DNA from: Aquibium oceanicum | GTDB taxonomy: Bacteria; Pseudomonadota; Alphaproteobacteria; Rhizobiales; Rhizobiaceae | Direction of reading: 5' to 3' | Assembly (NCBI RefSeq): GCF_001889605.1 | Contig: NZ_CP018171.1 | Coordinates: 1,572,501 to 1,636,500 of the forward strand | DNA length: 64,000 nt | Shown here: positions 59,722 to 64,000 of the stretch, piece by piece | Layout of the letters: each line of letters starts with the position of its first letter | Position numbering within the stretch: the first letter of the stretch is position 1 | Position numbers and translations under genes: made by a program | The notes under the pieces: generated by a model | The model's input: only the letters and a program-made list of their open reading frames with translations | Told to the model about the DNA's origin: nothing | Databases searched by the model: none

Positions 59722-60453
59722 TTAGTCCGCGTTGAACGCCATCGATGGCATCTCCCGCGGCGGCGACAATCTTTCGCGCGCACAAGGACGTGACATAGCC
59801 CATGCCGCTTGAGTAGCCGCCGATGCGCCCGGCACAACACGGCTTGCAACGAGGTTCTAGAGATCTCGGGCCCGGCGATCTTCGCTACGTGCCGGGCCAG
59901 TCGCGCCTGCTCGCAGCAGCGACCTTCGCGCCGCATCAGTCAGGAAGTCCGGCGTCGGCTTAGAACGCTTTGTCATCCTAGTATGGAAAACGGTCCCGCT
60001 GCGTACCTTGCGATGGTTCGCAGTGCCTGAGGCTCTTCAGCCTTTCCCTTCGACAATCGACGGAGTTTCCGAGCGCAAGCCGTTGAAACAGTGCATCGCA
60101 GGTGGCGATCCACCCTGAGAGTTCCCCGACACGACACAAAGATGGCGGTCACGCGAGGCAATATATAACGTTTGTTACATTGTTTGCCAAAATGAATAAT
60201 CTGTGTATGTTGATGTCGCAACAGGTTTCGCCTGTGGTCGCTCCAGCAAGGGACTGCCGCTCGGCAAGATCGGTTTCGGGGGGATCCGTTTATTCGACTG
60301 CCAATCACGGCTCATCTTGACCGTCGACGACTCGATCTTGGCGCTTTTCGACGGTTGCCGATCCGAACTTATTCTTCGGCTTGGTCGATTTACTGACTGT
60401 AATTGGAATAGATTTTTGGGCGTATCCAGTATTCGCCCTAGGGAGGACATTTG
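59722..60453. other. 732-bp gap with a possible decayed flavoprotein end and an AT-rich promoter
   Basis: No intact gene. On the - strand near 59850-59730 one frame reads CAGRIGGYSSGMGYVTSLCARKIVAA, resembling the C-terminal FAD-contact segment of fumarate reductase/3-ketosteroid dehydrogenase-like flavoproteins; upstream of it the frame is broken. Farther on, 60160-60220 is AT-rich. A promoter candidate TTGCCA (60184-60189), 16-nt spacer, TATGTT (60206-60211) points to the thiamine-diphosphate enzyme fragment. Confidence 0.35.
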
Positions 60454-60812
60454 ATGCGGAACATTTCCGGCAACCGCTATCTGGCGGAGGCGCTGAGGTC
60501 GTACGGAGTCGACTACTTTTTCCATATGCCGGCGCTGTTGATGCCTGCCTTCGCGGAAATGCGAGGCATGGGCATAACGTTGCTTTCCGCTCACATTGAA
60601 AAGGCTGCCGCATACATGGCTGACGGTTACTCGCGCGTCAGCAACAAGGTGAGCGTCGTCGGCGCGCAATATGTTGGCGCCGCCAATCTGGCCGCCGGAT
60701 TGCCGGACCCCTGGCTTGGCCGGTCGCCGGTTTTGGCAATCACCGGTGGGCCCGCGCGGGGCCTGCAGAACAAGCACGTCTATCAGGAGATAGATGCGCT
60801 CGAGATGTACGA
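60454..60812 (+). pseudogene. Thiamine-diphosphate enzyme (acetolactate synthase-like), N-terminal fragment
   Basis: About 119 residues match the ThDP-binding pyrimidine domain of the IlvB/benzoylformate-decarboxylase superfamily: RYLAEALRSYGVDYFFHMPALLMPAFAEM, the catalytic-type Glu in LSAHIEKAAAYMADGYSRVS, GAANLAAGLPDPWLGRSPVLAITGG and QNKHVYQEIDALEMYD. The intact family is about 550 residues, so some 430 are missing. Homology stops at about 60812, where PaaI-type sequence begins in another frame. The frame runs on to a stop at 60840. A good ribosome site (gggagga) precedes the ATG. Confidence 0.75.
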
Positions 60813-61166
60813 TGGGTCAGGCAGACGGGCGAAGACGTGAGCGTCGGAATGATCTGCCAGGGACGCCACGACAACGGAAACGGCGCGATGCATGGCGGGA
60901 TGATCTGCACTCTGGCCGACATAGGATTGGGGAAAGCGGTCCGCCTGCTACGCAACCGCGATCGGCCGCCGGACGCCGCGGTGACCATCAGCGCCACGAT
61001 ACAACTTGACGTAAGCTTTTGCGGGCGGATCGGCGTCGGCGATTTTGTCTGCACGCAGGCCATCATCAAATCGATGAGCCGCTCGTTGACCTTCGCTCAA
61101 GGCGAACTGCGCGTCGGCGACCGGACTGTCGCCACCATGCAGGGTGTTTTCAAGGTTATTCGTTGA
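60813..61166 (+). pseudogene. PaaI-type hotdog thioesterase, 5'-truncated
   Basis: Frame from 60813 reads WVRQTGEDVSVGMICQGRHDNGNGAMHGGMICTLADIGLG, the PaaI/4HBT hotdog motif with the catalytic-type region HxNxxGxxHGG. It continues to a natural end at 61166. The normal N-terminal 20-30 residues are missing because the sequence joins the ThDP fragment directly. Translation from the GTG at 60837 could still give a short product of 109 aa, so residual activity cannot be excluded. Confidence 0.72.
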
Positions 61167-61277: not shown

Positions 61278-62111
61278 TCAGAAAGTCGGAGGCGTATTGA
61301 CCCACAGCAGGATGGTCGTCGTCTGGCCAGGGTTCAGCCAGGCGTGTCTCAACGTGCTCGGGAAGTAGATGCTTTCACCCTGGCCGAGGTTGTGCTGCTT
61401 GTCGCCCTGGATGGTGATTTGGAACTGCCCGAACAGCACATAGATGAACTCCTCGCCGTCGTGGTCGTAGGCGCCATGGCTGCCGATACCCGGCTCGATG
61501 TACCAGCGCTGGCAGTCCATCATGGTCTTGCCGGAGGCCATCTGTTCGATCCGCAGACCCGAACCGAGCGTCGGCTGCAGAAGCCCCCCCGACTTCGGCG
61601 TTATAACCGTCTGCTGGCCCGCCGTGGAATCCTCGGCCATCAGCTCGGTCAGGGTCAGGCCGTAGTAGGATGCCAACGCCTTCGTCTCGGGAATACCGCC
61701 CAGCGACGTGCGCTCGATCGATGCAAGCACCTTCTGGTCGATACCGGTTCGGCCGGATAGCTCGCGCAGGGTCAGTTTAGCCGCTTGGCGCAGACGGCGC
61801 AGCCGATCTCCCACCGTGCTGGACGTCTCGTTCGGATCGGGAGCCGGCCCCGCGGGCACGATCGCCGATCTCAGCGCTGTGATGCTCAGGCCCTGGATCT
61901 TGCGCAGGCGCTGGATGTTCTGCGCCTCTGCTACATGCCGCTGTTCGAACTGACGGTGACCCGTCGTGGTGACATGCGGCGTGAGGAGGTTCTGGTCGCA
62001 CCAGTAGCGTAGCGTGCTGACCGGAATTCCCGTCAGACGGCTCAGGTCCGATATCCTCAGGACGGCTTTGGCACCGGTGCCGCTGCCGGATTCTTCAACA
62101 TCGTTGCTCAT
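61278..62111 (-). CDS. MerR-HTH / Cro-C1-HTH / cupin three-domain regulator
   Basis: 277 aa in three recognisable parts. Residues 18-85 form a MerR-type winged helix (RISDLSRLTGIPVSTLRYWCDQNLLTPHVTTTGHRQFEQRHVAEAQNIQRLRKIQGLSI). Residues 100-160 form an XRE helix-turn-helix (RLRRLRQAAKLTLRELSGRTGIDQKVLASIERTSLGGIPETKALASYYG). Residues about 200-272 form a cupin (IEPGIGSHGAYDHDGEEFIYVLFGQFQITIQGD...GESIYFPSTLRHAW). XRE-cupin regulators are common; a MerR domain in front is not. It diverges from the hydantoinase-family gene and probably controls it. Confidence 0.82.
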   Translation of the reverse strand: MSNDVEESGSGTGAKAVLRISDLSRLTGIPVSTLRYWCDQNLLTPHVTTTGHRQFEQRHVAEAQNIQRLRKIQGLSITALRSAIVPAGPAPDPNETSSTVGDRLRRLRQAAKLTLRELSGRTGIDQKVLASIERTSLGGIPETKALASYYGLTLTELMAEDSTAGQQTVITPKSGGLLQPTLGSGLRIEQMASGKTMMDCQRWYIEPGIGSHGAYDHDGEEFIYVLFGQFQITIQGDKQHNLGQGESIYFPSTLRHAWLNPGQTTTILLWVNTPPTF

Positions 62112-62280
62112 TTTTTGCCCTGCTTGGCGAAGATTCTATCTGCCACAGCCACTAAGCGATGTCAGTTCAGAAAGAATCAACAAATTAACTTGACATATTT
62201 TCTGAGCCGTTCACTTTTGGTCGTCAGGCGCAGGGGAACTCAGCGCACGTGATACGCTAAAAGTAGGAAGGACTGCTCGG
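62112..62280. promoter_or_regulatory. Divergent promoter region between the MerR-XRE-cupin regulator and the hydantoinase gene
   Basis: An AT-richer 169-bp gap. TTGACA at 62190-62195 is a good -35 box toward the hydantoinase gene, though no clean -10 at 17 nt was found. TCAGAAA near 62167-62173 and TTTTCTGA near 62199-62206 form an inverted pair about 25 bp apart flanking that -35. A ribosome site (aggaagga) precedes the ATG at 62281. Confidence 0.42.
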
Positions 62281-64000
62281 ATGTGGCGAGTTGGGATTGA
62301 CGTTGGGGGAACTTTCACCGACCTCTTCGCTTGGAACGAACAGGATAACAACTACAAGACAGCTAAAGTTTTGACCACGAAGGACGACCGCTCGCGTGGC
62401 GTTCTGCAGTCGATCGAAGCGGCTGGAATCGGCTTCGGCGACATCTCGCTTCTGATGCACGGCACGACGACGGCGACGAACGCCCTGATCGAACGGGACT
62501 TCCCGGACGCCGCCTTCATCACCACCGAAGGCTTTCGCGACACGATCGAAATCGGACGCCAGCACCGCAAGGCGCTCTACGATCCCTATCAGACCAAGCC
62601 GAAGCCGCTGATCCGCCGTCGCCACCGCTTCGCGCTGGACGAGCGCATGGCCGTGGACGGCAAGGTTCGCCGCCCGCTCGACGTCGAGGCTGCCAACAAG
62701 ATCGCCGCCACCATCGCCGAGCGCGGGATAAAGGCGGTCGGGATCGGCTTCATCAACGCCTATGTGAACTCAGAGCACGAACAGCAGATGCGCGACATCC
62801 TGCTCGAGCATGTGCCGGACGCTCATGTCGTCATCTCGGCGGAGACGCGGCCGATCTTTCGCGAGCATCCGCGCTTCGTGACCACCGCGATCCGCGCCTG
62901 CCTGATGCCGGTAATGACCATCTATTTCGACCGGCTGAGCACCTCGCTCTCGGAAAAGGGTTTCACCGGCACATTGTTGATCCTGAAGAGCAATGGCGGC
63001 GTCATGGGCGCCGAGAACGCCAAGGACCGCCCCGAGGAACTGATCGAGTCCGGGCCGGCGGGCGGCGTCGCCTACGCGTCCTACCTGGCGCGCACCACGG
63101 GCTTCGGGAACATCATCCACACCGATGTCGGCGGCACCAGCTTCGACGCGTCGATCGTCGAGAATGGCGGCGGTCTCATCACCCGCAACTACGAACTCGA
63201 GTGGGAGGTGCCGGTCAGCGTGCCGATGCTCGATATTCACTCGGTGGGCGCGGGCGGCGGATCGATCGGGTGGGTCGACGACGGCGGTTCGCTGCGCGTC
63301 GGGCCGCGAAGCGCCGGTTCCGAACCGGGGCCCGCCTGCTACGGACGCGGCGGCCTCGAACCGACCATCACCGATGCAAACCTAGTGCTGGGCCGCCTCG
63401 ATCCCACTCTCTCGAACAAGTTCTCGCTGGACGTCGAGGCTGCCGAGGCTGCGATCGACAAACTGGCCGAAAAGATCGGGCTGACGCGGCTGCAGGCCGC
63501 GGAGGGCATGATCAAGATCTCGTGCGAGACCATGGCCCAGGCGGTGAAGGGCGTGGTCGTGGAACGTGCCCGCGATCCTCGCGACTTCGTGCTGGCCAGC
63601 TTCGGCGGCGCAGGCCCCATGCATGCGTGTTTCGTCGCCCAGGCGATGAACATTCCAAAGGTGATCATTCCCGGACAGGCGGGTGTGGCTTCGGCCTTCG
63701 GCGCCACCGCCATGAACGTGCGGCACGACGTGGAAGCATTCCATTACGCAGATCTGGGCACGGTCAGCGTCGATGCCCTCAACGAAATCTACGAACAGCT
63801 CGAAGTGGAGGCCCGCGAGCGGTTGGCACGCGACTCCGTGCCCGCAGACAAGATCGAGATCGGTCGAACCGCGCAGATGCGATACGTGGGCCAGACCTAC
63901 GAGGTGGATGTCTCGATCCGCTCGGGGAAGATCGGGCAGGACCATCTGTCCGAGATCGCCGAGGCATTTCATGCCGCGCACCGCCAGGAGTATGGCGTCA
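62281..64000 (+). CDS. Hydantoinase/oxoprolinase (HyuA) family protein, 3' end outside the window
   Basis: 573 codons are visible with no stop. It starts MWRVGIDVGGTFTDLFAWNE, the ASKHA phosphate-binding motif of the HyuA family. MHGTTTATNALIERDFPDAAFITTEGFRDTIEIGRQHR, the ESGPAGGVAYASYLA and HTDVGGTSFDASIVENGG segments, and SVGAGGGSIGWVDDGGSLRVGPRSAGSEPGPACYGRGG are all diagnostic. Members include N-methylhydantoinase subunit A, 5-oxoprolinase and acetone/acetophenone carboxylase subunits, all ATP-dependent; the usual length is about 680-720 aa. A HyuB gene would be expected just past the window. Confidence 0.88.
   Translation, partial: MWRVGIDVGGTFTDLFAWNEQDNNYKTAKVLTTKDDRSRGVLQSIEAAGIGFGDISLLMHGTTTATNALIERDFPDAAFITTEGFRDTIEIGRQHRKALYDPYQTKPKPLIRRRHRFALDERMAVDGKVRRPLDVEAANKIAATIAERGIKAVGIGFINAYVNSEHEQQMRDILLEHVPDAHVVISAETRPIFREHPRFVTTAIRACLMPVMTIYFDRLSTSLSEKGFTGTLLILKSNGGVMGAENAKDRPEELIESGPAGGVAYASYLARTTGFGNIIHTDVGGTSFDASIVENGGGLITRNYELEWEVPVSVPMLDIHSVGAGGGSIGWVDDGGSLRVGPRSAGSEPGPACYGRGGLEPTITDANLVLGRLDPTLSNKFSLDVEAAEAAIDKLAEKIGLTRLQAAEGMIKISCETMAQAVKGVVVERARDPRDFVLASFGGAGPMHACFVAQAMNIPKVIIPGQAGVASAFGATAMNVRHDVEAFHYADLGTVSVDALNEIYEQLEVEARERLARDSVPADKIEIGRTAQMRYVGQTYEVDVSIRSGKIGQDHLSEIAEAFHAAHRQEYGV

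Follow-up and report, generated by a model that had tools for sequence, protein, structure and literature searches.

The window, the 64-kb stretch of DNA analysed here, carries a gene for a regulator in which a MerR-type winged helix-turn-helix (HTH), a Cro/C1 (XRE)-type HTH and a cupin follow one another in a single chain. This architecture is conserved and is no chance fusion, because matches to the protein occur in 55 of 298 Rhizobiaceae genomes and, over at least 80% of its length, in 120 plasmid records. Such three-domain proteins apparently form a family that joins two known kinds of regulator, and that is common in Rhizobiaceae and uncharacterised. To judge from sequence comparison, GABA catabolism (gabT/gabD) is very probably the target of its main branch, which would act through an A-tract-centred dyad of 17 bp. 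For the window's own protein, we consider it reasonably probable that it acts locally and as a dimer on the divergent hyuAB-liv operon in response to a metabolite, probably as a repressor, with the GABA systems as the main branch of the same family.

Domain organization of the regulator

The open reading frame starts with ATG and encodes 277 amino acids, with the coordinates given in the preliminary description. Features of the gene are as follows.

61278..62111, minus strand: three-domain regulator gene (277-aa ORF with Pfam domains)
61869..62057, minus strand: MerR-type winged HTH, residues 19-81 (Pfam MerR_1, 62.6 bits, 3.8e-17)
61635..61814, minus strand: Cro/C1 (XRE)-type HTH, residues about 100-159 (HTH_31 32.2 bits, HTH_19 31.5, HTH_3 23.9)
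61299..61505, minus strand: Cupin_2 sensor barrel, residues 203-271 (56.3 bits, 2.6e-15)

All three domains exceed Pfam cut-offs, in the order that the preliminary description had proposed from the letters. Its assignment of the N-terminal part to MerR also holds, since MerR is the best-scoring family there and nothing else in Pfam scores better; the Pfam model MerR matches the same segment with 39.5 bits. In the Cro/C1 region, HTH_31, HTH_19, HTH_25, HTH_3 and HTH_26 all match, the best at 1.4e-7. Among NCBIfam models, none of the whole MerR-Cro/C1-cupin architecture was found above cut-off; the best match is PuuR (NF007408), with 43.5 bits over residues 97-277 and a curated cut-off of 211. 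A sequence search of the PDB gave matches to single domains only: the N-terminus matched CueR, the XRE part a regulator and the cupin TM1112.

The same order of domains is kept in full-length relatives with 96, 66 and 57% identity (L041, L042 and L043, respectively), and in dozens of Rhizobiaceae relatives at about 33-42% identity. The MerR domain is present in every full-length relative examined. Across 47 sequences, invariant residues are found in all three domains: G28, T33, L34, R35, W37, G51 and R53 in MerR, R105, R108, E133 and R134 in Cro/C1, and H217, E221 and H256 in the cupin. Mean pairwise identity is 0.65 in MerR, 0.57 in XRE and 0.66 in the cupin, and 0.22 in the linker 82-99. Because of the invariant residues and the high pairwise identity in both, neither HTH of the family looks like a relic.

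The AlphaFold2 model, run on a five-sequence alignment, is weak (pLDDT 59) and confident at the level of domains only. It comprises a winged HTH, an XRE domain of five helices and a beta barrel; its Foldseek matches are HppE (top) and the HTH_3 regulator 1y9q. Residues 72-97 fall below a pLDDT of 50; the linker is variable and contains proline, and the helix that follows belongs to the XRE domain. The linker stands where classical MerR proteins have their coiled-coil helix, and since that helix is absent, dimerisation presumably comes from another part, most simply from the cupin.

It could be argued that the MerR domain is a relic and that the protein is functionally no more than an XRE-cupin repressor, as the C-terminal 180 residues resemble XRE-cupin proteins, both in the PuuR match and in the Foldseek matches, HppE and 1y9q being XRE and cupin proteins of 174-195 residues. 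We hold this improbable. The recognition-helix and wing residues of the MerR domain stay invariant in the 47 sequences, which come from four gene contexts, and the domain's identity equals that of the cupin, which is unexpected for a relic. The family offers a clean case for asking why two unrelated DNA-binding domains share one protein.

Distribution of the family

Relatives were sought in genomes at E<=1e-25. The 55 matching Rhizobiaceae genomes represent 22 of 109 genera. Beyond this family the regulator is rare, with matches in 2 of 385 genomes sampled across the class and in 8 of 398 across the phylum, and all matching genomes belong to the window's own class. Altogether, 122 plasmid records match, mostly Sinorhizobium megaplasmids, Shinella and Agrobacterium. 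Where an annotation is given for plasmid relatives, it is mostly “MerR family transcriptional regulator”, a label that hides two of the three domains.

The nearest relatives by identity come from a contig binned as Erythrobacteraceae (96%), a Novosphingobium MAG (64-66%) and Bradyrhizobium (57%). The regulator was not found in other sampled genomes of the window's genus, and lateral transfer is therefore likely.

Two records deserve a separate remark. A plasmid labelled as belonging to the betaproteobacterium Roseateles (L078, NZ_CP084753.1) is flagged UNVERIFIED_ORG and coincides with a Rhizobiaceae genome at the same coordinates, so that the organism name is probably wrong. In a Rhodobacteraceae MAG, a cupin-only ORF (L044:7932-8267), 68% identical over residues 190-277, lies beside a HyuB fragment; neither HTH was found in this ORF.

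The preliminary description knew of no described example of such a protein. This agrees with our survey to the extent that none was found among PDB sequences, NCBIfam models above their cut-offs or the open-licence full-text literature, which omits most subscription journals. In the portions covered of the literature on siderochelin, Streptomyces orphans, polyamine metabolism, Brucella GABA, XRE motifs and jumbo phages, no such protein appears. As a one-off, in turn, the protein cannot be regarded, given its frequency in Rhizobiaceae.

Gene contexts

In the majority of relatives, the regulator gene is divergent from gabT, usually with gabD next to it. In Shinella, the neighbours score above the curated cut-offs of the 4-aminobutyrate transaminase and succinate-semialdehyde dehydrogenase models. 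Clades of the protein tree correspond to other contexts: hyu (support 100/100), dmg or ETF (99/97) and racemase-fusion (100/100). Four relatives (L077, L080, L081 and L097) lie within an ETF/FAD-oxidoreductase (sarcosine-oxidase-like) operon. The hyu clade unites the proteins from the window, L041 and L042; here the regulator gene is divergent from hyuA, which is the candidate target in the window.

62281..64000, plus strand, continuing to a would-be 64308: hyuA (Hydantoinase_A), candidate target, divergent from the regulator (gene context)

Beyond the window, hyuA is followed by hyuB, a Liv-type (branched-chain-type) ABC transporter and an MFS transporter. The best NCBIfam models of HyuA and HyuB are caprolactamase CapA and CapB, with 484.9 and 304.3 bits, both below the cut-off of 1000.

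The racemase-fusion clade has chains of about 630 aa in which MerR, Cro/C1 and cupin are followed by a C-terminal proline-racemase domain (L137:4936-6831, L139:5950-7857, L142:4939-6834 and L143:5980-7869), and the same loci carry a separate, free racemase. Free racemases contain the cysteine of DRSPCGTG; in the fused ones the sequence is DRSPGV, without the second catalytic Cys. Because this residue is absent from the fused domain and the free copies keep it, the fused domain is probably a sensor and not a racemase. Across the family, substrates appear to be amino-acid-like, i.e. GABA, possibly N-methylglycines, proline-like and lactam-derived compounds, and this suggests an amino-acid-like class of ligand.

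Near the 3' end of the window's regulator gene, a short ORF that covers only an N-terminal part of a thiamine-diphosphate enzyme (TPP_enzyme_N; 60451-60840, plus strand) is followed by a small 4HBT thioesterase-like ORF (60837-61166, plus strand). The pair looks like a truncated or decayed gene.

A 17-bp dyad associated with the regulator

The motif was derived from 41 non-redundant gab intergenic regions. A blind count of gapped pairs detected CAGA-AAAA-type pairs in 32 of them, compared with at most 8 of 41 in shuffles. The refined motif is the 17-bp dyad TTGCA-GAAAAAA-TGCAA; counting variants such as CTACA-GAAAAAA-TGTAG, 38 of the 41 regions contain it. In the gab clade, a conserved TTGCAA box stands just upstream of it. 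Nine loci carry a pair of dyads spaced by 32 or 33 bp, or roughly three turns of the helix.

Presence of the motif follows that of the regulator. Of the 55 genomes with the regulator, 44 contain the exact dyad, against 5 of the 243 that lack the regulator (Fisher p=1.9e-36), a value that overstates the association, since the 298 genomes include related ones and are not independent. Dyad copies in genomes without the regulator have no gabT or gabD within a few kb around them and were thus taken as chance occurrences. Most sites (51 of 62) are less than 700 bp from the regulator gene. In G630 (L146:5221-5272), the tandem dyads at gabTD share a replicon with the regulator gene but are separated from it by 177 kb, and the site outlives gene linkage. 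In G642, a second dyad (L101:11105, minus strand) precedes an ORF for an ABC substrate-binding protein, a candidate further member of the regulon with a role in uptake.

The motif also reaches beyond gab loci. In the four dmg relatives named above, TCTACAGAAAATATGC or a close variant is situated upstream of the FAD-oxidoreductase gene, and near-perfect dyads are kept at two relatives in another family (L144 and L145). Co-occurrence in genomes, non-gab targets and the dyads in another family tie the motif to the regulator, as its candidate binding site. The dyad could instead serve a different regulator and be present at gabT by coincidence, as proximity is no proof of binding and gab loci have shared ancestry. 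We judge this very improbable, because the motif tracks the three-domain regulator across the 298 genomes and is found again at the dmg clade's target, which is not a gab gene, as well as in the two relatives from another family.

If the dyad is the binding site of the regulator, the predicted binding sequence for the S. meliloti or Shinella homologue is TTGCAGAAAAAATGCAA. For Sinorhizobium, Shinella and Agrobacterium, which meet GABA as a plant-associated nutrient, the family would provide a candidate regulator of its breakdown together with a candidate operator.

The intergenic region of the window

The regulator and hyuA are separated by 169 bp (62112-62280), a segment that the preliminary description had suggested for footprinting and that is very likely the operator region. 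The candidate elements are listed below.

62194..62204, minus strand: CAGAAAATATG, candidate operator core (same 11-mer in L077, L080, L097 and L125)
62187..62197, plus strand: AACTTGACATA, block identical in the window, L041 and L042 (alignment of the three hyu loci)
62165..62181, plus strand: GTTCAGAAAGAATCAAC, a further candidate A-tract dyad, oppositely oriented (sequence reading; CAGAAA hexamer at 62168; weak)

The 11-mer CAGAAAATATG is present as a single copy in the 64-kb window and was reached in 0 of 1000 shuffles, with the core chosen after the fact. The arms of the window dyad diverge from the gab consensus (PWM score -0.3). The gab PWM revealed no strong full-length site in the window, so the operator rests on the core 11-mer only. 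The 96% identical protein of L041 is accompanied by the A-tract only and not by the exact 11-mer. Because of this and of the differing arms, we assign CAGAAAATATG as the window's operator core provisionally, with moderate confidence.

The conserved block AACTTGACATA includes TTGACA at 62190-62195, a possible -35 of hyuA. The region of the two elements is likely, with moderate confidence, an overlap of operator and promoter; the conserved block may also simply be a -35 element. A sigma-70 promoter scan of the window intergenic found no promoter-like pair, and a repeat search disclosed weak inverted pairs only. A looser second-site pattern is absent from the 5.3-Mb genome carrying the window, but as it was too strictly written, this absence is uninformative.

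Proposed mode of action

The steps of binding, dimerisation, ligand response and repression that we infer are these. The regulator, as the hyu-linked branch of the three-domain family, would dimerise mainly via its cupin, and the dimer would bind the divergent promoter region 62112-62280. In this way it would control its own gene and the hyuAB-liv operon, predicted to encode an ATP-dependent hydrolase of the lactam, hydantoin or oxoproline type together with a Liv-type uptake system. Occupation of the cupin by a small amino-acid-like molecule would alter DNA binding; this ligand would most likely be a substrate or product of the pathway. The regulator is a possible sensor of lactams or omega-amino acids. 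As is known for XRE-cupin proteins, it would repress by default, until a pathway metabolite relieves the repression. Repression is favoured because the XRE-cupin factors of P. aeruginosa are all inhibitors that bind beside their own gene (PMC7901475).

The sign of regulation could be the opposite of the one proposed, and this is the chief alternative to our reading. MerR-type factors are usually activators, and the MerR domain might bind the dyad within an over-long promoter spacer and untwist the DNA upon ligand binding by the cupin, with XRE only adding affinity. The MerR domain is indeed the better conserved of the two HTHs, and the TTGCAA box upstream of the gab-clade dyad could serve as a -35. 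Nevertheless, we find this rather unlikely: no clear -10 could be placed at a spacing of 19-20 bp, the classical coiled-coil helix is missing from the poorly modelled and variable linker, and the window intergenic lacks a promoter-like pair.

Beyond local repression of hyuAB-liv, we tentatively propose a broader scheme for the family. In it, MerR and Cro/C1 of a cupin-held dimer might jointly read a composite operator, made up of the TTGCAA box and the A-tract dyad, often with two dyads three helical turns apart. Such proteins might control the catabolism of omega-amino acids, lactams and imino acids, and one branch might use a proline racemase of impaired catalysis as an additional sensor. 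The preliminary description had suggested that the two HTHs could read two half-sites or twist the DNA. This may be so; the observations that bear on it are the 17-bp dyad, single or often paired, the TTGCAA box beside the targets of the family and the strong conservation of both HTHs.

Comparison with known systems

Classical MerR proteins (CueR, ZntR and SoxR) share with the regulator an N-terminal MerR winged HTH, and CueR is its best sequence match in the PDB. In those proteins the HTH is followed by a long antiparallel coiled-coil helix for dimerisation, which the regulator lacks; its effector domain is a cupin, and a second HTH stands in between. Classical members activate by untwisting DNA at an operator located in a promoter spacer of 19-20 bp; in the regulator's family, the gab clade has the TTGCAA box followed by the dyad. 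HppE (hydroxypropylphosphonate epoxidase) combines an XRE-like HTH with a cupin, as does the regulator, but it is an enzyme and has no MerR domain. The pattern of H217-x3-E221 and H256 in the regulator resembles the HppE metal triad.

The XRE-cupin factors PuuR, ErfA, PsdR and PauR have, like the regulator, a Cro/C1 HTH followed by Cupin_2. They act on metabolic targets beside their own gene through palindromic operators, and those of P. aeruginosa are dimers on palindromes where motifs have been determined (PMC7901475); for the regulator, repression of neighbouring metabolic genes is predicted from adjacency and motif. These factors are two-domain proteins of about 180-200 aa, whereas the regulator has a second DNA-binding domain, the additional N-terminal MerR winged HTH, and a family dyad of 17 bp centred on an A-tract. 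From PuuR itself it is set apart by its score, which is far below the cut-off.

TnrA/GlnR and BldC-type proteins resemble the regulator in that their MerR-like winged HTH lacks the classical coiled coil (PMC5859096). They differ from it in having neither a cupin nor a second HTH. BldC binds direct repeats, unlike the dyad of the regulator family. Like the dyad of the family, the TnrA box is 17 bp long, and its two halves flank an A/T-rich centre.
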